In this document: one piece after another, positions 36,336 to 59,590 of the stretch | How the letters are laid out: each line of letters begins with the position of its first letter | Numbering within the stretch: position 1 is the first letter of the stretch | Source of the DNA: Acinetobacter sp. LoGeW2-3 | GTDB taxonomy: Bacteria; Pseudomonadota; Gammaproteobacteria; Pseudomonadales; Moraxellaceae | NCBI RefSeq assembly: GCF_002688565.1 | Contig: NZ_CP024012.1 | Coordinates: forward strand, 1 to 64,000 | DNA length: 64,000 nt | Direction: 5' to 3' | Position numbers and translations under genes: made by a program | The notes under the pieces: model-generated | What the model was told of the DNA's origin: nothing | Database searches by the model: none | The model's input: only the letters and a program-made list of their open reading frames with translations

Positions 36336-38759
36336 TTATTGGCAAGTTAAAACGACTATTTCATCCTTAGCTATATCAGGCTCTAAGGTAAACTGACTTG
36401 AGCAAGTCTGATTAGACGTTTGTACTTTAATAGAATAGCTTTGTGGGTTTAGACCGTAAACAGTCACTAAGTTTTGACTGTTAATTGGATATTTACCCTG
36501 TGCAATTCCTTCAATGTTTACCATGCTTCCGCTTTCAAGCGGCTGCTGATTTTGATCAATAAATTTAAAGGTAATGTTGTGGTTCGCAGTATTGCTCATT
36601 GGGAAATCAATAATATATCCACGTTGATTGATTGGCATAATGGAGCGAGAAGAGTGGGCAAAACTATCTTCAATACTGATTTGGCTGTCGTCAAAGATCA
36701 CACTATTCTCACTATAACCATATAAGTTATAGCTGAAAATTTCACCATTCTTGTTGGTTTTGCCTATATATGAACCATTGCTGTAAATATCAACATTTGG
36801 CGTACCATCAACGCGAACGAGTGCAAAGCTATTCGAAATATACTTACTTAGATCAAAACGGTTGCCTAACCAAACCAGAGATCCCATATAGCTTGCGCTG
36901 TAATATTTTTGATCATCTGTTTGCAGGTATTGTAAATTCAAGTCACCTGCATTGGTTTTAAAGCGTGTAGATAAATTGCCTGAATACTCATCGTGGCTGC
37001 GACTAGCGCCAATGCTATAGTCAAAACCAGTATTGCCTTCACTGTATTGATTAAACTGCAGATTAGTTTCGTCATCATCATGCTGATTCAGATTCAAGGA
37101 TTGTTTATTGTTATCAAAATTGTAACTTAGCCTGAGGTCAACACTTGCACGGTCATTGCTCTCAGCATCATAGGAGATACCAAAACTACCAAATAGATTG
37201 TTAGATAAAGAGCGACTGGTGCTTAAATTGAATAGCTTTTGATCTTCTGAATTCGATTCTTCCCTGAATTTACGTTCAATATAGCTGAGAGAAAGATTAT
37301 TCAGATAAGGGATCTGATTTTTAGATACATAGATTTGGTTTTCCCGCGCTGGCAAATAGCTATGACTACTGTAGTCATCCAGACCTAGCATGCGAAAGTC
37401 TGCGCTATAATATTGTGAACGTAGGCCGACACTATAATTTTGTGTATTGCGCTTAAACTCAGTATTGACCGTATAGCCCTCTAAACCTGCTTCATCTGCA
37501 TGGCTGTAGGCAGAGTTGACTTCCAGTAATCCCAACTTGTACAGATATTGGCTCCACATGAGTCCAGCACTTTCTAGTTTCTTACTATATTCTGCTGTTA
37601 TGCCTAAAGTTGTCGATGCTGTGATACCTCTACGAAGATAACCGCTTCCAAACCAGTCACGATAATCATTATCTTCATAAGCATAGTTATAGCGTAATTT
37701 ACCAGCGGAAAAATTATAATCTGTCAGTCCTGGACGCAGCAGCCGTTGATCGACAAAAACCGAGATATTTTGTACTGTAGTATTGCCTAAAATATCTTTG
37801 ACAATAATTTGTGCATCACCTAAACCTGAAAAGCCAATATTGCTGTCAATGTTATATTGGCCAGGGTTTACTTTGGCGTTATAGGCTTGTGAACCGTTAA
37901 TCATTAAATCGACAGTCGATTGTGTCAAAGCACTGCCTTGAACGGATGGGGTATTCCAATAGGTGAAATTGGGGCGTCTGCTGAAATTGGTGCCAAAGCT
38001 TAGACCACCAAAATAGAAAGATTGATTCAGCCCAGTATAGTTACTGACATTATCACCCAATTTTAAAGTCGTCATTTGTTCTGGGAATTCAAAACTTAAG
38101 GACGTATTTAAACGGTTGCTGCTCTGAGACTTGTTGTGATGATCATCATTGTTTTTACGAAACAAATGACTGCTGTTAAACAGCATGTTTTTCCAAAAAA
38201 GATTGAGGTCTGTCGAAGCATTGATTTGCTTGTTGTAATCACCATTTTGATAATACACATTATAGTTAATAAATCCGCCTAAATTAGGCATGTCAGGTAT
38301 AAAACGCTGCTTTGCAGCGAGTTCCTGCTTGAGCATATATTGCGCGGGAATGTTCAGTTTGAACAATTGACGCTGTGCATCAATTTCACTACTAAAACTC
38401 GGATTGTCAATTAAACAATATTGAATATTATCTTGATTTAATGCACTTAATTGAGAAATATCAACAAATCCTTGTTGAAGAATACTGCACTCTATATAGC
38501 GCTGCTGATTAATGTTAAGAATAAAGGCTTCTTGTTGCAGATCTACACCGTTGACCCAAAGCCCTAAAATAGCATTATCTTGTTTAGGTGCATTGATTAC
38601 TGAATGCTCGGTCCTTAATTCGGGCGCGGTTTTAGCCACAAGGTTTTTTTCAGCAACACTTTGCGCTAAGCCGTGTTGGGAATAAAGCGTACAGCAGATT
38701 AAAACGAGGGTAGATGGGGATGTGACAATATTGCGTACTTTTTTAATTCCTTTTTTCAT
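36336..38759 (-). CDS. Fimbrial outer-membrane usher (PapC/FimD family)
   Basis: 807-residue usher that assembles pilus subunits at the outer membrane. Signal peptide to about residue 33 (ending HGLAQS), an N-terminal chaperone-binding domain (WVNGVDLQQEAFILN), a long beta-barrel with LKLGDNVSNYTGLNQSFYFGGLSFGTNFSRR, a plug (AYNAKVNPGQYNIDSNIGFSGLGDAQIIVKD) and C-terminal domains. Its ATG shares one base with the chaperone stop codon, so the two are coupled. The length is normal for the family. It is last gene of the pilin-pilin-chaperone-usher operon. Confidence 0.92.
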   Translation of the reverse strand: MKKGIKKVRNIVTSPSTLVLICCTLYSQHGLAQSVAEKNLVAKTAPELRTEHSVINAPKQDNAILGLWVNGVDLQQEAFILNINQQRYIECSILQQGFVDISQLSALNQDNIQYCLIDNPSFSSEIDAQRQLFKLNIPAQYMLKQELAAKQRFIPDMPNLGGFINYNVYYQNGDYNKQINASTDLNLFWKNMLFNSSHLFRKNNDDHHNKSQSSNRLNTSLSFEFPEQMTTLKLGDNVSNYTGLNQSFYFGGLSFGTNFSRRPNFTYWNTPSVQGSALTQSTVDLMINGSQAYNAKVNPGQYNIDSNIGFSGLGDAQIIVKDILGNTTVQNISVFVDQRLLRPGLTDYNFSAGKLRYNYAYEDNDYRDWFGSGYLRRGITASTTLGITAEYSKKLESAGLMWSQYLYKLGLLEVNSAYSHADEAGLEGYTVNTEFKRNTQNYSVGLRSQYYSADFRMLGLDDYSSHSYLPARENQIYVSKNQIPYLNNLSLSYIERKFREESNSEDQKLFNLSTSRSLSNNLFGSFGISYDAESNDRASVDLRLSYNFDNNKQSLNLNQHDDDETNLQFNQYSEGNTGFDYSIGASRSHDEYSGNLSTRFKTNAGDLNLQYLQTDDQKYYSASYMGSLVWLGNRFDLSKYISNSFALVRVDGTPNVDIYSNGSYIGKTNKNGEIFSYNLYGYSENSVIFDDSQISIEDSFAHSSRSIMPINQRGYIIDFPMSNTANHNITFKFIDQNQQPLESGSMVNIEGIAQGKYPINSQNLVTVYGLNPQSYSIKVQTSNQTCSSQFTLEPDIAKDEIVVLTCQ

Positions 38760-39487
38760 TATTCCTGCTCCGCAATATCAAATTTCAACGGCTTATCGTT
38801 TGCGGTTTGCACAATGAGTTGAAGCCCTTTTTGCGGTTTAATGGCAGGAATGCTTAATTGCACTTGTTGCTGCGCAAGAATATATTTCATTTCATTTGAT
38901 GTGAAAATGCTATTTCCTTTGCCATCTTGCAGAGTAAAACCAGTGATTTGGAAATGCCCTGTACCTAAATTTTTGGCATGAATAGCAGGCTGGTTATTCA
39001 AATCTTTTGCGAATTGAAATGACAAATCTGCTTTAAAGTTTTTGCCTGCAAACAGCGGTACATTAAAACCATACGCATATTTAATGCCGTTGGATTTCTC
39101 TGTATCAGGCAATGGTGAAATTTTAATGCGCCAAGCTTCTTCTTTTTGTAAGTTCATTGCTGAAATGGGCTGTTTAAAACCCATACGGATGACCTGCTTG
39201 CTGTTCGGCTCAAGCACAAATGAAGCAGGACTAATCACCAGTTGATTATCAGGGGTCAGAATGTCATTACCATTACTGTCTTGAGTCCATTTATATACAT
39301 AAACTTCATAATTTTTGGGAGTTTCATCAGCAGAGGAGTGTAGGTTGATGGTTGTTGTACGCTGACGATTGTCCCCATTGATTTGCATTTTGACTGGATA
39401 AATTGCGACATTGGCATAAGCTGTTGCCGACATCATGCCAGCAATGCTGGCTAAAAAGCAAAGGCGGATCAATGATAGGTGAGACAT
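38759..39487 (-). CDS. Periplasmic fimbrial chaperone (PapD-like)
   Basis: 242 residues with a signal peptide (ending SATAYANVAIYP) and two Ig-like domains. The N-terminal domain has VAIYPVKMQIN and the G1-strand region ISPASFVLEPNSKQVIRMGF, which donates to pilin subunits. The second domain includes IHAKNLGTGHFQITGFTL. It stabilises pilins until they reach the usher. It is followed by the usher with a one-base overlap and preceded by the pilin gene about 190 bp upstream. Confidence 0.9.
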   Translation of the reverse strand: MSHLSLIRLCFLASIAGMMSATAYANVAIYPVKMQINGDNRQRTTTINLHSSADETPKNYEVYVYKWTQDSNGNDILTPDNQLVISPASFVLEPNSKQVIRMGFKQPISAMNLQKEEAWRIKISPLPDTEKSNGIKYAYGFNVPLFAGKNFKADLSFQFAKDLNNQPAIHAKNLGTGHFQITGFTLQDGKGNSIFTSNEMKYILAQQQVQLSIPAIKPQKGLQLIVQTANDKPLKFDIAEQE

Positions 39488-45837: not shown

Positions 45838-48800
45838 TTTCTAAGCTGCCTACATGGCAGTGAACTAATGACTTTAGGTTCAGCCATGCCAAGCTCACTT
45901 CTAAGCTGCCTACATGGCAGTGAACACTATCAAGACCTTGAGCAAGGTAACATGGATCTTCTAAGCTGCCTACATGGCAGTGAACCTCAAGGTCTTGGAA
46001 GTACTGAGCCAGTAATGTTTCTAAGCTGCCTACATGGCAGTGAACCTGCTGGAATAACAATAGATACACTTTTATCATTTCTAAGCTGCCTACATGGCAG
46101 TGAACCAACTAGAACCGCATTTTGACGCGGTGTTCAATTTCTAAGCTGCCTACATGGCAGTGAACGGCTTGGCTGGCAAAGTCCATGCCCTTGAATTTTT
46201 CTAAGCTGCCTACATGGCAGTGAACGGTGACAGTTTGCATGATGCTTATCAGTCATGTTTCTAAGCTGCCTACATGGCAGTGAACTCTAGGGATTTACGA
46301 CAACACTAACGCTAAATTTTCTAAGCTGCCTACATGGCAGTGAACCGGACTCAGGGCCTCTCTCACTGATCAATGAATTTCTAAGCTGCCTACATGGCAG
46401 TGAACAGGCTTTGGCCAAGGTAGAACCGGATGCTTGCTTTCTAAGCTGCCTACATGGCAGTGAACACAATGTAATTTCAAATGTATCTTCACAAGAATTT
46501 CTAAGCTGCCTACATGGCAGTGAACCCAGACATTACCAATGCTCAGATAGCGACCCTTTTCTAAGCTGCCTACATGGCAGTGAACAGGATCTGTCTGACT
46601 CACTCAAGACTTTGGTTTTTCTAAGCTGCCTACATGGCAGTGAACCAACTGGAACGGTTCGACTGGCGACTGATTTATTTCTAAGCTGCCTACATGGCAG
46701 TGAACTTAGCAGTGCCCGTCTCTAAATCTGAAATTACTTTCTAAGCTGCCTACATGGCAGTGAACGCATTGCATCGTAATATCGCACCTTAGCGTCATTT
46801 CTAAGCTGCCTACATGGCAGTGAACTCTGCATTTTTGAAGTGACTCTTTCTTCAATTTTTCTAAGCTGCCTACATGGCAGTGAACGCCTGAAAATAGGCC
46901 GTACAGCAATAATGGATTTTCTAAGCTGCCTACATGGCAGTGAACAGGAGCACACCATGAGCATTTTAAAATTAGGTTTTCTAAGCTGCCTACATGGCAG
47001 TGAACAAGGATTTTAAAAATGATTCAGATGCTCGTTTTTTCTAAGCTGCCTACATGGCAGTGAACCATCGCTATGCGTTCGGCTGTTATTTGCATACTTT
47101 CTAAGCTGCCTACATGGCAGTGAACGATCAGTACTTATCCGCCAAGCGGATCTACTATTTCTAAGCTGCCTACATGGCAGTGAACATCTTGGCCATGAAT
47201 GGGCAGTTCCTCTCTGATTTCTAAGCTGCCTACATGGCAGTGAACCCAGTGGATATTGATTCTTGGCTTGTGGTGAATTTCTAAGCTGCCTACATGGCAG
47301 TGAACCTGGCAGGCAGACGGACAGAAGGGCCATTGGGTTTCTAAGCTGCCTACATGGCAGTGAACCTTTGTTTACTGGTCCTCTGAACCAGATTGAATTT
47401 CTAAGCTGCCTACATGGCAGTGAACACCTGTCAGCTAACACAATGAACCTATTGGCATTTCTAAGCTGCCTACATGGCAGTGAACCTTGTACCCATCAAT
47501 CTGAGATTGCATCAGCTTTTCTAAGCTGCCTACATGGCAGTGAACTATGGGCCTGATCCGAGACGTGCAAATCAATGTTTCTAAGCTGCCTACATGGCAG
47601 TGAACAGTTTTCAGGATTTCACCAAGATACTATTAAATTTCTAAGCTGCCTACATGGCAGTGAACATGAAAACACAAAACAAACCTTTGAATTTTTATTT
47701 CTAAGCTGCCTACATGGCAGTGAACTGCGTAGCTTTGATAATCACCATCAATTTAATTTTCTAAGCTGCCTACATGGCAGTGAACTGGCTACCGTGTTGC
47801 ACCTACTCATATCGCAATTTTCTAAGCTGCCTACATGGCAGTGAACCATGCGCGACATGTAACGCACACTCTTAATGATTTCTAAGCTGCCTACATGGCA
47901 GTGAACTACATAGCTATCTGCAAAAGCCCAAGCAGCAATTTCTAAGCTGCCTACATGGCAGTGAACGCTTCTTGTGCTAACTGCTGAGCTTCCTCTTTTT
48001 TCTAAGCTGCCTACATGGCAGTGAACAATGAAGTAGCTTGCGTACTCATCACCTATATATTTCTAAGCTGCCTACATGGCAGTGAACAAGAATTAGGTTT
48101 TATTTCCGAAAAGAAACAATTTCTAAGCTGCCTACATGGCAGTGAACGTGAAATTATTATGAATACAAAAGTTAATGAATTTCTAAGCTGCCTACATGGC
48201 AGTGAACTGTACTGGGTCGGCATAGCAAAAGCCGTAAATTTTCTAAGCTGCCTACATGGCAGTGAACTTTGGAAATAATTTGGTTATTCAAATAGACATT
48301 TTCTAAGCTGCCTACATGGCAGTGAACTTGCATCTGAGACATAAGCCTTGATTGACTTATTTCTAAGCTGCCTACATGGCAGTGAACATACTGACTTAGT
48401 GCAGTTTAAAACAAGTGATTTTCTAAGCTGCCTACATGGCAGTGAACGCCAAAATGCTTAAACTCAACGGTCTTATTGTTTTCTAAGCTGCCTACATGGC
48501 AGTGAACCAATAGTTAAAAGAAAAACCCTTGCAGAATAATTTCTAAGCTGCCTACATGGCAGTGAACCTAAATGCCGTAATTCGCGTTTTAGAGTTTGGT
48601 TTCTAAGCTGCCTACATGGCAGTGAACACGTGGTTTTAGTTTGGCATGGTCAATATCTATTTCTAAGCTGCCTACATGGCAGTGAACTTAACTTTTCTGA
48701 AAAGTTTAAAGTAGGTGATTTTCTAAGCTGCCTACATGGCAGTGAACCATTGGTTGGTATTCCTGCTATCACTGCGTATTTTCTAAGCTGCCTACATGGC

Positions 48801-50487
48801 AGTGAACAAATCTTAAATCCTGAATATCGCACTTATCCCTTTCTAAGCTGCCTACATGGCAGTGAACGTGTTTGATGCCGACTCTCTAGTAAACCATACT
48901 TTCTAAGCTGCCTACATGGCAGTGAACTATACAGCGATCTCTTGTGACCCAAGGTCATTTTTCTAAGCTGCCTACATGGCAGTGAACGAACAAAAGTTGT
49001 CAATCACACTTGCCGATATTTTCTAAGCTGCCTACATGGCAGTGAACGGCTTTTCACGCCTGGCTTATACGACGGAACATTTCTAAGCTGCCTACATGGC
49101 AGTGAACAAACTTGCTGCCATTCCCTCTTATTACTCCACTTTCTAAGCTGCCTACATGGCAGTGAACATTTGGCTCAATTAATATTGCTTTATCCCAATT
49201 TTCTAAGCTGCCTACATGGCAGTGAACATGAATATGGGTTGGCTCTGGTGATTCGATCTTTTCTAAGCTGCCTACATGGCAGTGAACGTTGGTGGAAATC
49301 ATGGGACAAGTGGCGGTGATTTCTAAGCTGCCTACATGGCAGTGAACATGATGTCGGTTCACGGCATAGAAATTATGGATTTCTAAGCTGCCTACATGGC
49401 AGTGAACATAGCGATATTCATCACCATCACGTGCAAACATTTCTAAGCTGCCTACATGGCAGTGAACCATCTGAGTGATCAGAGCTAATAAGTCCTTGAT
49501 TTCTAAGCTGCCTACATGGCAGTGAACGAGAATCAAGGATTTTGACACCCTGAAAGTTTTTTCTAAGCTGCCTACATGGCAGTGAACCACTGCTGGACTT
49601 GTTTATTATTTTTTGATTATTTCTAAGCTGCCTACATGGCAGTGAACCAGAATAGAATAGAATCTATTGACATAGGACTTTTCTAAGCTGCCTACATGGC
49701 AGTGAACAACCTGACAATTCCTGTTGGTGGTGGCTATGATTTCTAAGCTGCCTACATGGCAGTGAAGGTTTTCTTAGCTGCATCGCCAAGCTTGGTTTTT
49801 TTCTAAGCTGCCTACATGGCAGTGAACTGTTCGGGCAATCAGCAGCGGGCTTTGCGTCATTTCTAAGCTGCCTACATGGCAGTGAACTTTGCAGCAGCGA
49901 TTATTTATGTAGGGATGTTTTTCTAAGCTGCCTACATGGCAGTGAACGATGCAGCTAAGAAAACCTTGAAAGACGTTGATTTCTAAGCTGCCTACATGGC
50001 AGTGAACTTCAACAAGGTTGCCGAAGTCGAAACGGTCAATTTCTAAGCTGCCTACATGGCAGTGAACACAAATTCAGGCTGCTGGTTGCTGCGCTTGTCT
50101 TTCTAAGCTGCCTACATGGCAGTGAACGTTGGGTTTCATGGCAAAAACTCCCTGGTGATTTTCTAAGCTGCCTACATGGCAGTGAACGCTTTCGCGCTCG
50201 GCAGCTTTGTTGAACTCTCTTTCTAAGCTGCCTACATGGCAGTGAACCAGTTGCAGTAGACGGTCAAAGTTTCGCGCGTTTTCTAAGCTGCCTACATGGC
50301 AGTGAACTTAATCTATTTGTGGCAATGATGATGCTAGACTTTCTAAGCTGCCTACATGGCAGTGAACAAGCCAATCGCATGCAGCTTGTTCATTAATGCT
50401 TTCTAAGCTGCCTACATGGCAGTGAACTCATCGTACTCAACCACACGACCATCTTTAAATTTCTAAGCTGCCTACATGGCAGTGAAC
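45838..50487 (-). CRISPR. Type I-F CRISPR array, 78 repeats and 77 spacers
   Basis: The 28-bp repeat on the plus strand reads TTTCTAAGCTGCC, TACATGGCAGTGAAC; the transcribed (minus) sense begins GTTCACTGCC, the type I-F form with a CTGCC/GGCAG hairpin. Units recur every 60 bp (32-bp spacers) except two 33-bp spacers near 47786 and 48027. Repeats are almost identical from end to end, including the distal one at 45838. One has its last base changed (C to G at 49767). The leader is on the right next to csy4, so the newest spacers are near 50.4 kb. Long reading frames across the array are repeat artefacts, not genes. Confidence 0.98.
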
Positions 50488-50618: not shown

Positions 50619-51233
50619 TTAAAATTCAGGTACAGATGACTCTGAACTTAATCCATAAGTGCTAAAAACCTGAGTTTCAGATTTTTCAGCAGATTGTTTT
50701 TCAATGAAGATTTTAAAAGCGTGCTTTTGACTTAACTCTAAATTTTCAGAAGAACTATCACTCAGCATATTGATATAGGGCAAATCAGTTGTTTTTACAA
50801 ACTTACCGTAATGTGCCAAGGCATTTTCATAACTAAAACGCCCTTTTCGCTCATCATGTCGCGCTAAGCGTGCAGCACTGCTTTTGACTTGCTTACGCTT
50901 ATACAGTGCATAACCCGTAACTTTTTTTGAAGACACTGGTTTTACAGAACTAATATGTACATAGTCCAAATAACGACTGAGCCATTTGGGCACATCCAAT
51001 TGAATTAATTCCTGTTCACTTAAGCCAAAGATACGTAACTTTTCGCCAATAAATCCCTTCCCTTTTTGAGGATCAAAACGATAATCAGGAAATGAAAAGC
51101 CAATTTTCACCTTACTGCTTTCGTCTTTTAAACCAGCCAATGCAAGATGTAGCTGTTTATAAATTTTAGACCATAAAAAGTTAATCGAGATTTCATCATC
51201 TGGCAGAAATTTTAATTCCAGATAATACTTCAT
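50619..51233 (-). CDS. cas6f: Cas6f (Csy4) crRNA endoribonuclease
   Basis: Cuts pre-crRNA at the base of each repeat hairpin and stays bound to the crRNA 3' end. It has 204 residues. His29 in KIYKQLHLALAGL corresponds to the catalytic His29 of Pseudomonas Csy4. An Arg-rich helix for hairpin recognition follows (SSAARLARHDERKGRFSYENALAHYGK) and the C-terminus is YGLSSESSVPEF. It overlaps the csy3 stop by one base and is last of the Cascade genes, adjoining the leader. Confidence 0.94.
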   Translation of the reverse strand: MKYYLELKFLPDDEISINFLWSKIYKQLHLALAGLKDESSKVKIGFSFPDYRFDPQKGKGFIGEKLRIFGLSEQELIQLDVPKWLSRYLDYVHISSVKPVSSKKVTGYALYKRKQVKSSAARLARHDERKGRFSYENALAHYGKFVKTTDLPYINMLSDSSSENLELSQKHAFKIFIEKQSAEKSETQVFSTYGLSSESSVPEF

Positions 51234-52273
51234 TATTTATCACTCTCGCCAAATACACCACCACGAACCAAAACTGCCATCACATAATGCTGCTGTTCAA
51301 GTTCAGGTACTTTATTGTCGTTGACCCAAGCATCAAACAAGCTATAAAAATCTTGTTTTTCTTTTGGTTGGCGATATGCCTTACCTTCCGAGGTTACTGA
51401 ACCGTATGGCTCAACTGCAATCGGTTTATCTGCATTTGGATACCATGTATCAATCGTACGTAGTGCATTACCAATTTTTTGTGAATGAATGCCTGCTTCT
51501 TGATTGCCAAAAGAGTATAGAGTTTTACTCTTAGCACCTTTGGAATTGCTCGTATCTAGAATCAGTTCTTGTGATGGATATACTTCTTGCCCTTCACCTA
51601 AACGAGAAAAACCTGTCACTTTAAGTAATACATGTTCCTGACCATTTAAACCTGCTTCAATCCAAGCGGAAAGCTTTTGAATTTCATTTTTTTGGTCTTG
51701 ATGTATTGTTGCTTCATTTAAACGATTTTGTAAAGCATCAAAACTTAATTTTTCTACGCTCTTACCATCAATTAAACGTTCAACTGTAACCGTGACATTT
51801 TCAGCACCAATACGGTTACGCCACAAGAATCGACCATTCGCTAAATTCACAGCATAACGATTTGCAAGTTCACTAAATTTATTCGCAGCTTCATAACCTG
51901 ATACCACTGCTTCAAGGCGTTCCGCAAATGCTGCATCATTACATGCAGATGGACGACCTACATTCGGCAAGACACGTAAGCTAAACGTCACAGCAACGGT
52001 ATCTTTGCCTTGTGGTAAAGCAGCAACATCTACCGTTTGCAAATTGGCTTTATTCACGGCTGCATTGATGGCTGCTTCATCCGTTTCTTTACTATTTTTA
52101 GGACGATTAGAAATCGTACCACGTACCGATTTTTCTTGAATTAAGATCGGTGTGTTTCCTGCACCTTGTGCAATATCCGCCCAATTTACGGCAAACATAC
52201 GACCATCTGATGCATCTAAATGACGGTTAAATGAAAGTACTGATGCTGTTTTTAATTTGTCATTCTTAGCCAT
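51233..52273 (-). CDS. cas7f: Cas7f (Csy3) Cascade backbone
   Basis: 346-residue RAMP protein that coats the crRNA spacer in six copies. Recognised by order and by segments such as ASVLSFNRHLDASDGRMF at the N-terminus and NRYAVNLANGRFLWRNR in the middle. It starts 2 bp after the csy2 stop. Length is normal (about 340). Confidence 0.93.
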   Translation of the reverse strand: MAKNDKLKTASVLSFNRHLDASDGRMFAVNWADIAQGAGNTPILIQEKSVRGTISNRPKNSKETDEAAINAAVNKANLQTVDVAALPQGKDTVAVTFSLRVLPNVGRPSACNDAAFAERLEAVVSGYEAANKFSELANRYAVNLANGRFLWRNRIGAENVTVTVERLIDGKSVEKLSFDALQNRLNEATIHQDQKNEIQKLSAWIEAGLNGQEHVLLKVTGFSRLGEGQEVYPSQELILDTSNSKGAKSKTLYSFGNQEAGIHSQKIGNALRTIDTWYPNADKPIAVEPYGSVTSEGKAYRQPKEKQDFYSLFDAWVNDNKVPELEQQHYVMAVLVRGGVFGESDK

Positions 52274-52275
52274 GA

Positions 52276-53376
52276 TTAAATTTCCTCTTCTTCTATTTCA
52301 AAGTCAAATGATTGATGTAGTTCTTCGTCTGTTAATGACGCGTAAATTTCTGATTTAGGTGAAAATGGTTGAACGAGCTCATACAGCCCATTTTTGGGTT
52401 CAGTGTTGTAGTTCCACAAAATGTCCATGATATTTTCAATACGATGTGGACTTTGCCATTCACCTAAACTGATTAAGGTTTCAACAAAGGTGGCAGGATA
52501 GTCATCATGACGTAATCCTTTAATGCTGCCTTCAGGCTGTAAAGCCGTTAAAGCTGCATAACCAATGGGTATCGGCACAAGCCAACCTTTTAAATGTTCA
52601 GGGCGTGGTCGTAACGTCCAAACACCCTCTACTGATTCTTGATCAACTGGTGCTTCTTGCGCAGTACTGACAAAATTGAAGCGTTGAATATCCAATAACG
52701 TATCGAGCAAATCAGGACTATTTTTCTGAGTCGCTAAATATGTTGGATTTTGCACTAACCAATTTTGATGTGCCATCAACAGCTCATGACGATGCTGTAA
52801 AGCAAAACCTGGTAATACACTCCGACGTAGTGTTTTGGTTTTCTCTACTGCATCGTGTTCTGACCAATTGATCAATTTAGGTTTGACACGTTTGTGTGGA
52901 AATACCGAACCGCCTGCCAAACGCATGTTGTAGACCAACTGATTTAATCGAGCTAACAAGCTTTGCGTCTGAGTCGATAAATCTTCGTCATTGGCAGATA
53001 GATGTTCGTCTAGCCCATCTCCTGCTAAACCAATCAGTAAACTGACTTCAAAGTGTCCTTTGCCCTCTTCAATCATCGCAGGTGTAGAACCATCTGCTTT
53101 TAAAGGGTGACGAGCTAAATTCAGTTGATACGGTGAATAACGGAAATTATTGGTTTTGGTAATTTGTGGATTAAATTGATGCGATATAATCCCAATACCA
53201 CAACATTCAACAGTTGCATATTCAGTAATTTGATTCAGCTGACGCTGTAAATGATGCATAAATCCAGTAAATGCACTTGGTGCTGGGAAGCCCCACGTTA
53301 AATGACTACTGATAATCGATGCATTTTCAACATTTAGACGTACAACATACAATGCTTTAGGATAAGTTAAATGCAT
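52276..53376 (-). CDS. cas5f: Cas5f (Csy2) Cascade subunit
   Basis: 366 residues. It binds the crRNA 5' handle together with Csy1. N-terminal RAMP fold segments: ALYVVRLNVENASIISSHLTWGFPAPSAFTGFMHHLQRQL; the later GGSVFPHK and PIPIGYAAL segments are typical. The start overlaps the csy1 stop by one base, indicating translational coupling. It is somewhat longer than the Pseudomonas protein because of a C-terminal acidic tail (FDFEIEEEEI). Confidence 0.92.
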   Translation of the reverse strand: MHLTYPKALYVVRLNVENASIISSHLTWGFPAPSAFTGFMHHLQRQLNQITEYATVECCGIGIISHQFNPQITKTNNFRYSPYQLNLARHPLKADGSTPAMIEEGKGHFEVSLLIGLAGDGLDEHLSANDEDLSTQTQSLLARLNQLVYNMRLAGGSVFPHKRVKPKLINWSEHDAVEKTKTLRRSVLPGFALQHRHELLMAHQNWLVQNPTYLATQKNSPDLLDTLLDIQRFNFVSTAQEAPVDQESVEGVWTLRPRPEHLKGWLVPIPIGYAALTALQPEGSIKGLRHDDYPATFVETLISLGEWQSPHRIENIMDILWNYNTEPKNGLYELVQPFSPKSEIYASLTDEELHQSFDFEIEEEEI

Positions 53377-54710
53377 TAAGCAAACTCCTCTTTCAGCAAT
53401 TTTAATTTTTCACGTAAAATCAAAGACCAAGCACGGGCTTCATGATCGTCTAAATCCACAATCTTGCCTTTTTTTGTGAGGATCTCATTCAGCCATGTGC
53501 CAAAGTTATAACCCACTTCAGTATGCCAATCTCGTTCACGATAAGCCTGTAACCACTCAGCTTCTTCTTCCATCAATTCTTCGGCATCCTCTTTATTAAA
53601 GAGTTCTTCCCGATAGCCATAATCGAGCCAATAACTTTCTGCACGACTAAAACTAGACTTCTGTGTCCAACCCGATGGTGCACTTTGTTGTAGCTCAAAA
53701 CTTATATCAATAATGCAATCCGCCAATTTAGATACCAAGTCATCCCGTTGTGCACGAAATTCCTCGTTATTGCGACGATCTTCTTTACGATACAAAGTCA
53801 CGATTTTATGCAACAAAGACTTAATGTCTTTACGGTTGCTTAAATAGCCTGTAAAAACCGAACCACGTTTTGGTAATTCAATCTGCTGACCTTTCCAAGT
53901 CGGTGGAATGGATGGTAATAGCCACATGGAGCCACGTCGGTCACTATTAAGCTGTGAAATATTTTGCGGTTTAGAACCACCAAAATTTTGTACCAAGAGA
54001 TTCGGATACTCACGGCTTTCATGGGCATGGTGTATTTTTTTAAACCGTGCTTCACGTAGTGCTTTACTCTCATCACTAAAACGATCATGAGAAAGCTGTT
54101 GATACGCTCGGTGAATCAACGAACTCGGATATAAAATCACTAAAGTATGATATTCATCATCTTGCACAGGAAACAGCACTTGTTTAGAGAAGCGTCCTGC
54201 ATTGAGTTCTGTTGGCAACTGACTGAACGCTAAAAAGCGTTCATAACGTAACTGTGCAATTTCAGATTTCACAGATAATGCTGAGATTAATTCCTGATCT
54301 GCATTTAACAACCGATCAAGCAACGATGTACCTTGAAAAGATAAACGTAGCATCTTAAATACATCTAATACGGCAGCATTACCAATCACATCAGCATCTA
54401 GTTTTATACCTTGGGAACCCACATAATGATGCGTTTTGTCCGTATTGCTATAAAACATAGCAGATGCTTTTGAATCAGGATGGTGTTGTTTCGGTGTATG
54501 CGTCGCCAAACGTAATTGGCTAATGCGTAGACTCGCATCTTCCAACCACGTTTCAAACTCATATTTTTCCAATAGCTTGTCACGCTCTGCCATATCATCC
54601 GCTTTGAGTTTTTCCAGCTTTTCATTCAAACGTCCTTGAATATATTGCTCTATTAACTCACGAATGCTAGCAGGCTCGGAGTTTTGAACTCCCTCTACTT
54701 CATCATTCAT
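53376..54710 (-). CDS. cas8f: Cas8f (Csy1) large Cascade subunit
   Basis: 444 residues. It recognises the CC PAM and binds the crRNA 5' handle. Family segments: SREYPNLLVQNFGGSKPQNISQLNSDRRG and WLLPSIPPTW (central), ending in a helical bundle. It is first of the csy operon and is preceded by a 429-bp gap that contains the candidate CreTA-like module. No strong ribosome site is visible directly before ATG 54710, so translation may depend on upstream RNA structure or be weak. Confidence 0.93.
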   Translation of the reverse strand: MNDEVEGVQNSEPASIRELIEQYIQGRLNEKLEKLKADDMAERDKLLEKYEFETWLEDASLRISQLRLATHTPKQHHPDSKASAMFYSNTDKTHHYVGSQGIKLDADVIGNAAVLDVFKMLRLSFQGTSLLDRLLNADQELISALSVKSEIAQLRYERFLAFSQLPTELNAGRFSKQVLFPVQDDEYHTLVILYPSSLIHRAYQQLSHDRFSDESKALREARFKKIHHAHESREYPNLLVQNFGGSKPQNISQLNSDRRGSMWLLPSIPPTWKGQQIELPKRGSVFTGYLSNRKDIKSLLHKIVTLYRKEDRRNNEEFRAQRDDLVSKLADCIIDISFELQQSAPSGWTQKSSFSRAESYWLDYGYREELFNKEDAEELMEEEAEWLQAYRERDWHTEVGYNFGTWLNEILTKKGKIVDLDDHEARAWSLILREKLKLLKEEFA

Positions 54711-54764
54711 TTTTTGTACTCATTACAAAATAAATTATGTTTTAAATCATTTTTTGTTATCATC

Positions 54765-54783
54765 TTGATAGATTAACTATCAA
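54765..54783. promoter_or_regulatory. Perfect hairpin before csy1
   Basis: TTGATAG and CTATCAA arms around a 5-nt loop, about 55 bp before the csy1 start. There is no T-run, so it is not a standard terminator. It may be an operator or a 5' leader RNA structure. Confidence 0.5.
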
Positions 54784-54806
54784 TAATGATGTGTGATGCC
54801 AATTGG

Positions 54807-54889
54807 CTAGACCCTTCTAACTAAATGTGTGCTAAACATCGTTACCCCCCTTACCCTATCGGGTGATGTGTGATCCTGCCAGATCGATA
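54807..54889 (-). ncRNA. Candidate CreT-like toxin RNA with 10-codon mini-ORF
   Basis: On the minus strand a 10-codon ORF (54839-54807, MFSTHLVRRV) follows an unusually strong Shine-Dalgarno, AAGGGGGG, 5 nt before ATG. It contains tandem rare Arg codons AGA-AGG before its stop. A candidate promoter lies upstream: TTGTAC at 54925-54920, 17 bp, TAAAAA at 54902-54897, so transcription would begin near 54889. The start would carry a hairpin with CTATCG (54890-54885) and CGATAG (54861-54856). CreT RNAs are known to kill by sequestering rare tRNAs through a well-initiated mini-ORF. This assignment is inferred from layout; the RNA ends are estimates. Confidence 0.55.
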
Positions 54890-54911
54890 GTTAGTCTTTT
54901 TAATTTTTAAA

Positions 54912-54944
54912 CCTAGTTAGTACAATTAAACTATATTTTAAAAC
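54912..54944 (+). promoter_or_regulatory. Protospacer-like target with CC PAM, overlapping promoter
   Basis: CC at 54912-54913, the type I-F PAM, is followed by a sequence that matches the spacer of the solitary mini-array (55065-55095) at positions 1-5, 7-11, 13 and 15-20. Position 6, normally flipped out in type I targeting, is a mismatch. The target covers the -35 region of the minus-strand promoter proposed for the mini-ORF RNA. Confidence 0.7.
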
Positions 54945-55036
54945 CACTAAATCTAAGATAAATTATTTTTTCAGATATCACAAGTACAAAATTTAACAAC
55001 TTGTAAGTTGAGAGCATCAACAATTACACTATGCGT

Positions 55037-55123
55037 ATTCACTGCTAAACAAGCAGCTTAGAAATAGTTCGTACATTCAAACTAGTTTGTATTTTATTCA
55101 CTGCCATATAGGCAGCTTAGAAA
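55037..55123 (+). ncRNA. CreA-like mini-CRISPR: two degenerate repeats and one spacer
   Basis: Repeat-like units at 55037-55064 and 55096-55123 flank a 31-nt spacer (55065-55095). They read in the opposite strand sense to the main array. Unit 2 (ATTCACTGCC ATATA GGCAGCTTAGAAA) differs from the array repeat at two bases. Unit 1 is more diverged, but its stem CTGCT/AGCAG still pairs, replacing CTGCC/GGCAG by a compensatory change. The 8-nt handle CTTAGAAA is intact in both, so Csy4 could process a crRNA-like RNA. Convergent with cas3, whose stop is 17 bp away. Confidence 0.8.
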
Positions 55124-55139
55124 GCTAGGTTTATCAGGG

Positions 55140-58100
55140 TTATTCCCTGATAAATCCTAGCCAATTATGGTATTTCCACTTTTGTAGGTCTTTTAACTCG
55201 GGTAAATTCAAACTTAAATAACGACCACAGTTTTCACTCCAAATCCTGTCATTTGGATTGACCTCTAAATATTTCTGCAATGCTTGCTGAGGGTTCTGAT
55301 TTGGCCAACAATGAATCTGCGGATTGTCAGCTAGATCAACTCGTCGAATTAAACTTTCTTCATACAGCCAATTTCCCGTTTTATCGTTATAGGCATAAAG
55401 ACCTAACGCTTCCTCATCTTCCTCCGCTCTAAATGCCATGAACTTTTCTGCTTGTGATTGTCTAAACTGGCTTAAGCGTTGCAAAATCCCCGTATAATGA
55501 ATCGGTGTATTCCAAAAAGCATAGGTTGGAAATTTAATCGGCACACTTCTACTCACTCGCATATCAGGGCTAATGCCTTGCCCCAATAAAATTGAGTGCA
55601 TGCGATCATGCTCTAAATCAACCAAATTTGGATAACCAAATTTTTCATAATATTTCTTTAAGTAGTTTGCTCCCGGTTGCTGCAAACGTGGTATAGCATC
55701 TAATTGGTCTAGATGAGCTTTTCGAATTAATCCATCATCAATATCTTTAGTAACACCATTTAAAAAATGTCTAGTCGTCTTAAACTCAAAACCCGTCGCC
55801 TCAAAGCCTGGGCGTGAAAAACAACTTCGATCAGGATGTTTAAAATGTCGAATATTGGTTTCCATTAAAAAGACATTTGGCTTGTCATTAGCTTCTATGC
55901 GATGACGTCGTACCCGTCCAGAAGCCTGAATAATCGAACGCATAGACGATGGTTCTAGAATCATCCAATCATAATCATGATCACGCCCCACCTCACAAAC
56001 AGGGGAAGCTAAGACCAAAATAATATGCTGTTGTTCTGGATATCGATTTAGCCACCCCTGCACCATTGGATGATCATGTGGCTGTTTAGATTGATTTCGA
56101 TCTAAAATTTCATCTAAATATTTTTCAATATTTGCACGCATCAACAATGGAAAGCGCGAATGATAGACACAAATATGAATGCGGACATTTGGATCAATCT
56201 GCTGTTTTAATAACTGCTGAGCAATTTCAGCTAATGGATCAATATTGGCAAAGCGTACTAAACCCACACTGTATTGTTTGCCTGTATTAGGATCTGTAAT
56301 TGAATTTTCACCATGTGCAAGCATTGTCGTTTGCAGAATTTTTTCTGTAAAAACTTTTTCCCACTTCTCCTGCGCTGATATTCTTCGCGGTAAACCCACC
56401 CATTCAACTGTACGTCGTTTGGTTTGCTGTGCTTGCTGATTTAAGAACTCAACACGTTGTTTAGTAAATTTGAGATGGGCTTTTTTAAAAATGTCATTCG
56501 CTTGACTATCATTGATATTTTGATCGCACGGAATAACCTCATGACAAATACTGTTAGGGTTTTCATCAAACCATGCAGCAATAATCGGTTGGTCTACCTG
56601 TGTACGATTTTTATTATAAAATTTACGCCCAGAACTATACGCCAAATACAAACCATTAATTTCGGCAGGTGTGAGCGTTGCCGATGACAATAATACCCGA
56701 CTACCCAACAAACCTGCCCAATGCACCAAACGTGTCAGCGCATAATAATCTTCAGGGGAAAAATCATCAGGTTCATCCAATACCAAATCTGATGACATTA
56801 AACGTAACATCGGTGCAATTTGTTTTCCGCCACGAGTACTTTCAGTGGCTGGAATTAAATGATCTATCGTGCAACATAAAATTGGACTCATCAGCATTTT
56901 TCTTACTTGATGATTTCCCTTTAACCATTTGGCAAACATATGCTGCTGATCAAGAATACCTTCAAAATCTAGTTCATGATCATCATAATCAACATAGCTT
57001 TCTTCATCTGTCAGCCCATTTAAGGATTCTGAACCGATATTTTCTGCAATATACTGATTTTGTTTCGGATCAAGATTTTCTATATTTTCTTCTAAAATTT
57101 CTTTTGAATCTTTCTGGCTATAATGCTCAAAGATTTCTTTAACTGCTCCACCACCGACCATAATGGCTAAATCAGTTTCGTCTAAATCCAGTTTCTGACG
57201 TAAAGCTTTACCTGTTTGCAAAGTTAATGTTCTAAGACCTAGAGCAATATTAAAACGTGCACCTTTTTCAGGATCAGCAAGACCGTACATAATTCGGGTA
57301 TTACCCAAGGTTTTGCCTCGCCCAGTCGAAGCCAAATTCACACCAAAAAAACCATGATTTGGATAATCTTTTTGTATTTTACACGCTAACTGATAAGACT
57401 TATCTTGCCATTGATAATATGAGTTATTGGTTTTACCTTCTAAACCTTTTTGTTGAGGTAGACGATCAAACAATGCATCTAATCGAGTCAGTGCACCCAT
57501 CAGTTGCCTCGCCGATTGGCTTACCCCCACCAAATGATCGTCTAAGCTTTGCTTTAATGCACCAAATTTATCCGTATTGGCATATCGATCATACTTTGGA
57601 TCATGCCATTTAGGATTGGCATCACAACTTGAATAATAATGGTCTGACAACATTAAGGTCAGCCGTGAAATATGACTCACATATGGATCATCTAATCCAA
57701 TCGAATGAGGAAGATTCAGTAATTGCTTTAAATTACGTGCACAGGAATTTACTTCTCTACACCATGTTTCACTATTGAAAGGAATATGCTCTTGCCGAAT
57801 ATTCCAGCATTTTTTAATCTCTTTTTGTTGAGTACTATCACCATCTACATATTGTTTTGGATAGCACCAACTAAATTTTAAGTCACTCCAAATTGATTCA
57901 AATTTATCTGTTTTATAGCTTGAATCTTTGGTATTTGGTATCGGTAAACGATGATGTGAAACAATCAGCCACGCTGTTAGTTTTGCAATGGTTGGTAAAT
58001 TTTGAAAAGGTGAGCCTGATACTTGGTTTATTCCATCTTTAATGACTTGATCCAACCAAGAAAAATTATGATTTTTATCAGACATGGATACAAGGGCATC

Positions 58101-58625
58101 AATCCAATCTTTATCTTCTTCACCACAGCTTTGCACAAAAGCTTCAAATAATCTCAGAGAAATCCATTCATGTCTAAATGGATCAGCTACTGGTTTTTTA
58201 CTCTTCGAAACATTTTTTAATTTCGCAGCAAAAAATGGATTAATTTTGCCAAAGTCATGAAATAGTGCAGCGATGCGAGTGACTTGACTGACAAAACTTG
58301 CTGAGTGCCAATTTTGATCACAATAATCTACTTTTAACTGTTTTGATGTTCGATTTACCGGCACAATCCCCTCACGATTAAACTTATTCCGATTCCCCAC
58401 AATCCACAGCAACTCACTGCGACGTCTGCCTCGAATCCAATGACAACTGACCGCTGTACTTTTGGTCACAGTCTTACGCAGTAACTTTTTCACCGCTATT
58501 AGACCGTCTTCTGTAATCACTGTTTGCCACGTGTTATCCCCAATCCGATCAGCAAAAGCATCCAATACTCGACGAGTACGTGGAATGGCTTTCTTTTCGC
58601 ATTGACTAATAAAGGTCACAATCAT
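55140..58625 (-). CDS. cas3f: Cas3 with N-terminal Cas2 (Cas2-Cas3 fusion)
   Basis: 1161 residues, normal for type I-F. N-terminal Cas2 domain (MIVTFISQCEKKAIPRTRRVLDAFADR), HD nuclease with RIAALFHDFGKINPFF (about residue 115), helicase Walker A LASTGRGKT, DEAD-type LVLDEPDDFSPEDY, LLSSATLTP, and motif VI QASGRVRRHR. It degrades DNA bound by Cascade and works with Cas1 in spacer acquisition. It starts 5 bp after the cas1 stop, so it belongs to the cas1 operon rather than the csy operon. Confidence 0.96.
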   Translation of the reverse strand: MIVTFISQCEKKAIPRTRRVLDAFADRIGDNTWQTVITEDGLIAVKKLLRKTVTKSTAVSCHWIRGRRRSELLWIVGNRNKFNREGIVPVNRTSKQLKVDYCDQNWHSASFVSQVTRIAALFHDFGKINPFFAAKLKNVSKSKKPVADPFRHEWISLRLFEAFVQSCGEEDKDWIDALVSMSDKNHNFSWLDQVIKDGINQVSGSPFQNLPTIAKLTAWLIVSHHRLPIPNTKDSSYKTDKFESIWSDLKFSWCYPKQYVDGDSTQQKEIKKCWNIRQEHIPFNSETWCREVNSCARNLKQLLNLPHSIGLDDPYVSHISRLTLMLSDHYYSSCDANPKWHDPKYDRYANTDKFGALKQSLDDHLVGVSQSARQLMGALTRLDALFDRLPQQKGLEGKTNNSYYQWQDKSYQLACKIQKDYPNHGFFGVNLASTGRGKTLGNTRIMYGLADPEKGARFNIALGLRTLTLQTGKALRQKLDLDETDLAIMVGGGAVKEIFEHYSQKDSKEILEENIENLDPKQNQYIAENIGSESLNGLTDEESYVDYDDHELDFEGILDQQHMFAKWLKGNHQVRKMLMSPILCCTIDHLIPATESTRGGKQIAPMLRLMSSDLVLDEPDDFSPEDYYALTRLVHWAGLLGSRVLLSSATLTPAEINGLYLAYSSGRKFYNKNRTQVDQPIIAAWFDENPNSICHEVIPCDQNINDSQANDIFKKAHLKFTKQRVEFLNQQAQQTKRRTVEWVGLPRRISAQEKWEKVFTEKILQTTMLAHGENSITDPNTGKQYSVGLVRFANIDPLAEIAQQLLKQQIDPNVRIHICVYHSRFPLLMRANIEKYLDEILDRNQSKQPHDHPMVQGWLNRYPEQQHIILVLASPVCEVGRDHDYDWMILEPSSMRSIIQASGRVRRHRIEANDKPNVFLMETNIRHFKHPDRSCFSRPGFEATGFEFKTTRHFLNGVTKDIDDGLIRKAHLDQLDAIPRLQQPGANYLKKYYEKFGYPNLVDLEHDRMHSILLGQGISPDMRVSRSVPIKFPTYAFWNTPIHYTGILQRLSQFRQSQAEKFMAFRAEEDEEALGLYAYNDKTGNWLYEESLIRRVDLADNPQIHCWPNQNPQQALQKYLEVNPNDRIWSENCGRYLSLNLPELKDLQKWKYHNWLGFIRE

Positions 58626-58630
58626 AATGC

Positions 58631-59590
58631 TTACCCCTCTACATCATGATTTTTGCAAGCTTGTGCTTTGACCTGATCAAACATAAAGTCCAATACCTTA
58701 TGCTCAGTAAATTTCTGTAAAATCTGCTGCCGAAACTCTTGCTCGGTCATTTTCTCTTTGGCACAAATAAAGGCATAGGGTAAAACCACTGCGTCTTTAA
58801 TTAAATCCGCTACATCAAAGACCAATGCCCCACGACGGGTTTTACCATGCATCACTGCAAAACCATGTGGAATACCCAAAACCCAAAGTGTTGTAGCAGC
58901 TAAACCGTAGGCCAAATAATTACCGTGATTTAAAAAATCATTGGCTAAATCCCCTTGTTCAGGGTTACGACTAAAATCCTTAAGCCCTGTCCGAGTCGCA
59001 GCAATTTTATAAAGTAGTTTCGTTGTGGCAGCTTCAGCAAGTAACAGATCACCAACCTTACTTTGCAATGGAATTTTTGCACGATAAGCATTGAGTGCTT
59101 GTTGAATATCTAAATCATCGATATGAAAGCTATATTCTTTTAAATCCCGATCTTTTGCCCAAATTTTGTGAATGTATTCAATTCGTGCGACTTGAAATTG
59201 CTTTGCCACTTCTAAACGTTTTGCTTCATCAAACCAAAAAGACAACCAACCTTGCACATATTCAGTGGGACGATATTCACTTTGTGGTGTCATCCACTCA
59301 ATTTCACATCCCATAAATAAAGGTGTTCCACCACCGCCCGTAAAACCAACGAGTACGCCGGCACTCGCCAACATGCGCATTGCAGCTTGGGTAATGGATG
59401 TCCCTGTACCAAGCATAATGACTGTGGTATTGGCTATCGGGATATTCCAATACTGATTTTCATTTTTAGCTTCTGTTAAATACAAAACACGCCCATCTTT
59501 TTGCATGACGCGGCAATGCTCGAGATAGTACAAATTTGCACGTTTAGAATGTAGTATGGCTTTTAAATCTGTGGGATTAAGATTATCCAT
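58631..59590 (-). CDS. cas1: Cas1f spacer integrase
   Basis: 319-residue integrase of the type I-F adaptation complex. The C-terminal helical domain has the metal ligands: Glu in LLLAEAATTKLLYK, His in IPHGFAVMHGKTRRG and Asp in ALVFDVADLIKDAVVLP. It works with the Cas2-Cas3 fusion encoded next. The region upstream (59591-59954) should hold the operon promoter. Confidence 0.95.
   Translation of the reverse strand: MDNLNPTDLKAILHSKRANLYYLEHCRVMQKDGRVLYLTEAKNENQYWNIPIANTTVIMLGTGTSITQAAMRMLASAGVLVGFTGGGGTPLFMGCEIEWMTPQSEYRPTEYVQGWLSFWFDEAKRLEVAKQFQVARIEYIHKIWAKDRDLKEYSFHIDDLDIQQALNAYRAKIPLQSKVGDLLLAEAATTKLLYKIAATRTGLKDFSRNPEQGDLANDFLNHGNYLAYGLAATTLWVLGIPHGFAVMHGKTRRGALVFDVADLIKDAVVLPYAFICAKEKMTEQEFRQQILQKFTEHKVLDFMFDQVKAQACKNHDVEG

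Follow-up and report, generated by a model that had tools for sequence, protein, structure and literature searches.

The 429-bp gap between cas3f and csy1 of Acinetobacter sp. LoGeW2-3 very probably houses a type I-F CreTA module, in which a crRNA-like guide, creA, would direct the Csy complex to silence a toxic mini-ORF RNA, creT, making the cas genes addictive and likely also damping the csy operon. An initial annotation made from the sequence had offered the CreTA reading, and the anatomy supports it: the parts, their order, their strands and their place between cas3 and csy1 are those given for Acinetobacter I-F CreTA in the relevant sections of PMC10097628. The guide and target are complementary, the arrangement is conserved in relatives, and the creT RNA co-varies. 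I-F CreTA is an already known, little-studied kind of element, and judged by its sequence the LoGeW2-3 locus is a real member of it.

The DNA analysed, here called the window, comprises bases 1-64000 of a 179,399-bp contig from an assembly of 2 contigs and 3.36 Mb. It carries a complete type I-F system on the minus strand, consisting of cas1f (58631..59590, TIGR03637), cas3f (55140..58625, TIGR02562), csy1 or cas8f (53376..54710, TIGR02564), csy2 (52276..53376, TIGR02565), csy3 (51233..52273, TIGR02566), csy4 or cas6f (50619..51233, TIGR02563) and, beyond csy4, a main CRISPR array with 78 repeats matched by Rfam CRISPR-DR4 (45838..50487). The gap itself spans 54711-55139, between the cas3f stop at 55140 and the csy1 start at 54710. 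The locus most likely sits on a plasmid, as had been suggested for this guard next to csy1, because a ParA gene is present near the start of a contig of this size in a two-contig assembly; in lying on a 179-kb contig the module differs from the I-F CreTA described in those sections of PMC10097628. The same contig also carries usher and PapD-type chaperone genes (36336-39487), and an ALIL pseudoknot (Rfam RF01497, 32647-32763) overlaps the start of an integrase-core transposase gene. A consensus promoter scan of the gap region gave no convincing promoter for creA or creT, both of which would be transcribed in our reading; it returned a single promoter-like site, where shuffles average 2.5, and by eye the second hexamer of this site is lost in two relatives (L016 and L017). 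The consensus scan for terminator-like sites found none within 54650-55250.

The two-repeat mini-CRISPR reported at 55037-55123 is recovered by Rfam CRISPR-DR4 on the plus strand, with PsiR1 at 55037..55064 (37.4 bits), whose 3' end is the 5' handle CTTAGAAA, and PsiR2 at 55096..55123 (41.7 bits). Against the window's own array repeat, taken as the commonest among 12 array copies sampled, the degenerate PsiR1 is identical at 22/28 positions and PsiR2 at 26/28, so PsiR1 is the more diverged. Between them lies the 31-nt guide, PsiS (55065..55095, plus strand). The CC-flanked target proposed for this guide (54912..54944, plus strand; PAM at 54912-54913, target at 54914-54944), 201 nt upstream of csy1, stood up equally well. 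It matches the first 20 guide positions at 17, with mismatches at 6, 12 and 14; positions 1-5 and 7-11 match perfectly, and among the last 11 positions 4 match and 7 do not. None of 2000 shuffled spacers equalled the real match within the gap. The seed pattern with its PAM, CCTAGTTNGTACA, has a single match in the 3.36-Mb genome, which is this target, and its backward control has zero.

Downstream of the target, on the minus strand opposite creA and divergent from it, lies the creT mini-ORF (54807..54839, 33 bp, ATGTTTAGCACACATTTAGTTAGAAGGGTCTAG). Its 10 sense codons and stop are ATG, TTT, AGC, ACA, CAT, TTA, GTT, AGA, AGG, GTC and TAG, and it stands behind the Shine-Dalgarno (SD) stretch UAAGGGGGGU (54844..54853, minus strand). 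The coordinates, the strong SD and the rare arginine codons noted earlier for this ORF check against the sequence: codons 8-9 are the tandem AGA AGG (54813..54818, minus strand), and codon counts over 23 window ORFs place AGG as the rarest codon and AGA as the fifth rarest.

Wang et al. 2023 (PMC10097628) described type I-F CreTA in three Acinetobacter strains, WCHA45, LoGeW2-3 and ANC3789, and reported 19 further modules. According to the sections of that paper on I-F CreTA, WCHA45 CreT poisons A. baumannii AYE and is repressed there by CreA, transcripts of a creT-promoter reporter drop about seven-fold in the presence of CreA and the Csy complex, and creT of both WCHA45 and LoGeW2-3 is toxic from plasmids. 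The ANC3789 creT was non-toxic in AYE, which leaves two of three tested I-F creT toxic and means that a look-alike need not be active (PMC10097628). In the same sections, killing is ascribed to an RNA effect that depends on the SD, on a 5-bp hairpin containing the AUG and on the loop. The emphasis that the initial annotation placed on rare arginine codons therefore stood only in part: our comparative data, given below, support these codons, but they do not belong to the mechanism published for WCHA45, because among single-codon synonymous changes only those at codons 2, 3 and 5 abolished toxicity. That result argues against either rare codon being strictly required by itself, each change having left the other rare codon intact.

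With WCHA45-type modules, as those sections present them, the window shares a cas3-csy1 gap of ~400 bp, the order PsiR1-PsiS-PsiR2, a CC-flanked partial target and a divergent SD-led mini-ORF of 33 bp whose codons 2, 3 and 5 (TTT, AGC and CAT) are identical to those of WCHA45 CreT. Nucleotide 12 is A in the window and G in WCHA45, where a G-to-A exchange at this nucleotide kept toxicity (PMC10097628). The start-codon hairpin of WCHA45 CreT is possible in the window as well, although the window's minimum-energy fold differs. The guides differ in length (31 nt in the window, 20 nt in WCHA45), and the WCHA45 mismatches within the first 20 positions fall at 6, 11 and 18. A more distant likeness is to the haloarchaeal type I-B CreTA of H. 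hispanica and H. hubeiense, in which, according to the passages of PMC8501985 on these systems, a crRNA-like CreA guides Cascade to repress CreT, a tRNA-sequestering mini-ORF RNA in which two rare codons, AGA AGA or AUA AUA, stand next to each other. The consecutive AGA AGG of the window and an AGA/AUA swap across I-F loci resemble this, whereas the CRISPR subtype and the place of the module differ and a start-codon hairpin is not named in those passages.

Relatives were collected with Csy1 searches of overlapping genome sets: 175 genomes of the genus (36 matching, 11 of the window's Csy1 kind, its own included), 348 of the family (12 at 1e-90), 390 of the order (16 at 1e-60), 369 of the class (12 at 1e-40) and 201 of a second family, f36 (62 at 1e-60). 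No relatives of the locus were found among viral contigs. Among plasmid records, pANC7970.1 was the single match both for the entire gap and for Csy1, and four others matched the repeat part only; the named genome contigs yielded one relative (L010). In the Csy1 tree the window belongs to a clade of 13 rows with SH-aLRT 100. This tree was made by a quick method, its long branches meet and its deep order is unsure, its labels were set by hand, and two genomes enter it twice (L046/L075 and L044/L084).

Each of the 13 clade rows carries a mini-CRISPR together with a CC-flanked target for its guide; guide-target complementarity is kept in the 12 clade relatives and is weakest in L021. In shuffle tests with 2000 shuffles per row (L042 aside), 34 were as good as the real match in L021, one in L018 and none in the remaining rows. 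Guides differ among the rows, and in 9/12 rows of a cross-matrix no gap gave a better fit to the guide than its own, the exceptions being L012, L015 and L021. L016, L017, L018 and L042 have their target on the opposite strand. One relative (L012, genome G115) has a 20-nt guide with mismatches at 6, 11 and 18, as given for WCHA45 in the I-F sections of PMC10097628. creT is intact in 8 rows, decayed in 1 (L009) and absent from 4 (L014, L015, L019 and L020); these four have a gap of ~200 bp and a target ending 16-24 nt before csy1, and in the other nine rows the target lies 200-243 nt before csy1. The decayed case is plasmid pANC7970.1 (6132-6306), with an early stop, a broken hairpin and an intact guide-target pair. 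In L018 (2826-4136) an insert of ~900 bp with two antisense ORFs lacking Pfam matches separates cas3 from a degenerate PsiR2, and creT and the guide-target pair are retained despite it.

The part of creT conserved in Moraxellaceae (54795..54887, minus strand; alignment A2 and covariance model R1) takes in leader hairpins, the SD, the mini-ORF and a rare-codon hairpin. Nine creT regions support five helices, four predicted and one, the start-codon helix, added by hand; 92.6% of cells are paired, support is far above slid controls, and pairs changed on both sides number 11 compared with 5.1 in shuffles, of which 1/500 was as high. The strongest helices are the hairpin round codons 6-9 and the stop (54803..54824, minus strand; 5/9 pairs compensatory over 9 sequences) and the 3' hairpin between creT and csy1 (54759..54790, minus strand; 4/13 pairs compensatory). 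In the start-codon hairpin (54825..54839, minus strand), nt 1-4 are able to pair with nt 15-12 (pairs AT, TA, GC, TA). This helix is present in a shorter eight-sequence consensus fold and missing from the nine-sequence one; it shows zero compensatory change among the nine creT regions of the window's clade. It is also missing from the minimum-energy fold of the window's 175-nt RNA (z = -3.1), where the AUG pairs with an upstream CAU. An inverted repeat (54770-54784 / 54883-54897) encloses creT, which makes an alternative fold conceivable in which the leader and the 5' arm of the 3' hairpin are base-paired. Model R1, built from eight creT sequences of the window's Csy1 clade, was run with strict filters over the 175 Acinetobacter genomes and matched 7 of them once each, always just upstream of csy1, all seven sites being among or equal to its eight building sequences; at E 0.01 it gave no matches outside csy1 leaders in these genomes.

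Beyond the clade, csy1 was placed in 116 type I-F loci, or 113 after three repeats of the same genome were dropped. Scoring for two I-F repeats 15-35 nt apart (maximum 56) gave 53 loci with at least 31, which count as mini-CRISPR carriers, 5 with 28-30 and 55 that scored lower or had no room. From loci scoring at least 29 and the window we took 54 distinct guides, and 47 of these have a CC target with at least 13/18 matches. With 300 shuffles for each of the 47, the real match was never equalled in 41, equalled once in 3, twice in 2 and six times in 1. Two loci (L053 and L043) reached 14/18 after the repeat position was set by hand, and a clear target of at least 13/18 was not reached in L021, L078, L086, L095 and L136. 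Of the 158 mismatches in the 47 guides, positions 1-5 have 0, and 102 are found at 6, 12 or 18, where an even spread would put 26. Positions 6, 12 and 18 are those flipped out of the duplex by Cascade-type complexes. This pattern was not built into the search, because targets were picked by plain identity.

For the mini-ORFs, start codons were picked by SD strength, which left 11 loci without a candidate and, after exclusion by length of 12 non-duplicate picks (L009, L039, L053, L059, L061, L078, L085, L092, L099, L115, L125 and L136), a set of 29 distinct ORFs of 7-16 codons. The start taken by the SD rule seems wrong or premature in L018, L055, L059, L065, L106 and L115, which were left in the counts as picked. 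Two neighbouring AGA, AGG or ATA codons occur in 26/29 of these ORFs, where csy1 codon usage leads one to expect 0.03; in the csy1 genes these are the rarest codons, cysteine codons aside. The three without a pair (L055, L065 and L106) are apparently wrong starts, and L055 and L106 have a tandem pair in another SD-led frame. The pair stands at codons 8-9 in 23 mini-ORFs and at 6-7 in two shorter ones, and in L018 it comes one codon later because the SD rule took an extra ATG. It occurs as AGA AGA, AGA AGG, AGG AGG or ATA ATA. Rarity rather than the amino acid is conserved, since the pair switches between arginine and isoleucine types even between Csy1 neighbours (AGA AGA in L053, ATA ATA in L094). 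Outside the counted set, L053 has its pair in a longer SD-led ORF, L061 has TTA TTA, none of the 400 codons counted in its csy1 being TTA, and L059 has an SD-led ORF with no tandem rare pair. L065 has an SD-led ORF with an early stop; AGA AGA lies beyond it in the same frame. Counted by locus, 33/53 high-scoring loci have an SD-led ORF holding the pair and 20 do not.

The start codon, moreover, pairs fully with codon 5 in 25/26 of the tandem-codon ORFs, compared with 1, 17, 6 and 0 of 26 for codons 3, 4, 6 and 7. Nucleotides 1 and 15 form A-T (A1–U15) in 13 ORFs and G-C (G1–C15) in 12, with 0 cases of A-C or G-T (Fisher 1.9e-7); kinship inflates these counts, yet both states occur within one family. 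The 26th ORF, from L018, has A-A at these nucleotides with the start chosen by the SD rule. Given these frequencies of tandem rare codons and of start-codon pairing, the start-codon hairpin and the rare-codon pair would therefore both be features of the whole I-F creT family. This proposal comes from the comparison made here; the main text of PMC10097628, its supplement aside, contains neither "arginine" nor "AGA". Some gaps hold other genes: in L085 (3096-3705, f36) the stretch from cas3 to the mini-CRISPR contains, in antisense orientation, a HicB gene (PF05534) and next to it a HicA-like ORF without a Pfam match, which may together be a protein toxin pair replacing creT, and by eye L086 (f36) is arranged likewise. 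In L044, L074, L076, L079 and L081 the cas3-csy1 gap is 245-252 bp and has no mini-CRISPR; that of L044 contains a short ORF resembling a truncated HicB by eye, with no Pfam match.

Guide and target are also kept where creT is missing outside the clade. The target then lies 30-35 nt before csy1 in L083, L090 and L091, and 50, 79 and 107 nt before it in L087, L043 and L117. The creT segment measures 129 nt between anchors in L101 and 5 nt in L092 and L099, a loss of 124 nt after which guide and target remain. Among the mini-CRISPR rows of the Csy1 tree, creT presence changes 10 times, on hand-set labels and an unsure deep order. Because relatives without creT keep the guide and a target shortly before csy1, the guide likely also represses the csy operon in the manner of a CreR, creT being a cassette gained and lost over time within the csy leader; retention of both elements without the toxin would fit csy self-repression. 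A single promoter may feed both creT and csy1-4, with read-through into csy1. Homology from PsiR1 to the target between toxin-less and toxin-bearing loci reaches z >= 2 in 9/20 pairs and falls below in 11 (best L019 against the window and against L012, z 4.1), and the shared-promoter idea therefore leans on position more than on sequence.

A CreR is a cas-regulating mini-CRISPR RNA partly complementary to a cas promoter and, as put in PMC12737573, uncoupled from a toxin gene. In the relevant passages CreRs are stated for types I-B, I-E and V-A (PMC13131331) and for "type I and type V-A" (PMC12737573). The window may resemble them in the first respect, with its target 201 nt before csy1, and differs in that a toxin-like ORF separates this target from csy1; I-F is missing from the list of types in that part of PMC13131331, and we found no I-F CreR in the literature searched, which largely excluded subscription papers. 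The toxin-less I-F loci of our survey would be CreR-like. The sections of PMC10097628 on I-F CreTA mention neither creT-less relatives nor csy control.

Taken as a CreTA module, the gap would work as follows. CreA RNA would be cut by Csy4, by homology, and would guide the Csy complex to the CC-flanked site before creT, silencing CreT RNA; if Csy proteins were lost or blocked, CreT would be made. CreT would then act as a decoy mini-mRNA, its strong SD and its start codon held in a short hairpin capturing ribosomes, and the tandem AGA AGG stalling ribosomes or tying up scarce tRNAs, so that the cell would stop or die and the cas genes would become addictive. Trapping of tRNA or ribosomes by very short, rare-codon ORFs is known from the bar minigenes of phage lambda and the AGG/AGA minigenes of E. 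coli, which resemble creT in length and codons and lack CRISPR regulation. The rare-codon pair may in this way add tRNA or ribosome trapping to the hairpin effect; against this, AGA lies within the co-varying hairpin in Moraxellaceae, which could explain its conservation without tRNA effects. CreA would likely damp the csy operon as well, because its target precedes csy1 and no terminator-like site was found between them.

We considered whether the gap might be less than a toxin-antitoxin module. That the guide merely brings the Csy complex to the csy promoter or leader and lowers cas expression, the mini-ORF being inert, seems improbable to us. Such a regulator would account for the relatives that keep guide and target close to csy1 with no toxin, both in the clade (16-24 nt) and outside it (30-35 nt), and for the decayed creT of L009 beside an intact guide-target pair, and CreRs are stated for types I-B, I-E and V-A in PMC13131331. 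It would leave the constraint on codons 8-9 and codon 5 needless, however, and the window creT keeps the features that mattered in WCHA45, two of the three tested I-F creT being toxic in the sections of PMC10097628 cited above. With creT intact, a pure CreR was rejected for the window.

A short ORF with tandem rare codons followed by a co-varying hairpin, all before an operon, would also suit an attenuator, a leader peptide that uses its rare codons as sensors of charged tRNA and thereby controls read-through into csy1-4. We consider this very unlikely: the scan of 54650-55250 found no terminator-like site, and the swap of arginine for isoleucine codons between close relatives (L053 and L094) is unlike a sensor of a single amino acid. 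The toxicity of WCHA45 and LoGeW2-3 creT from plasmids (PMC10097628, I-F sections) also speaks against it, though toxicity is compatible with an attenuator. Still less credence, close to none, is due to a decayed CRISPR-array end with a chance self-match, even though the repeats are degenerate and AT-rich DNA can yield such matches by chance. We rejected it on the shuffles, the unique seed match and the non-random mismatch positions; in addition, guide-target matches are kept in the 12 relatives, and guides fitted their own gaps at least as well as any other in most cross-matrix rows.

Returning to the CreTA module, we would tentatively extend it into a joint reading that we hold slightly less probable than its opposite. 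In it, I-F CreTs throughout Gammaproteobacteria would be a single class of decoy mini-mRNAs that trap ribosomes and scarce tRNAs by two separable hooks, the start codon tied to codon 5 and a rarest-codon pair (AGA/AGG/AUA) at codons 8-9. The creT cassette would enter and leave a csy leader already self-repressed by an older guide RNA, so that toxin and Csy share one guide-controlled promoter. Were Csy blocked, whether by mutation, an anti-CRISPR or crRNA excess from the 78-repeat array, more Csy would be called first and, failing that, the toxin released.

With these relatives in view, two questions can be put to the test: what I-F CreT acts on, and whether I-F CreTA arose from a CreR-like regulator. 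The toxin-less loci, two of them with a clean loss of creT, suggest both a CreR-like layer of control in type I-F and a route from CRISPR self-control to CRISPR addiction. If a plasmid brings its own guard along, this would also matter for how CRISPR-Cas systems persist when moved between hosts.
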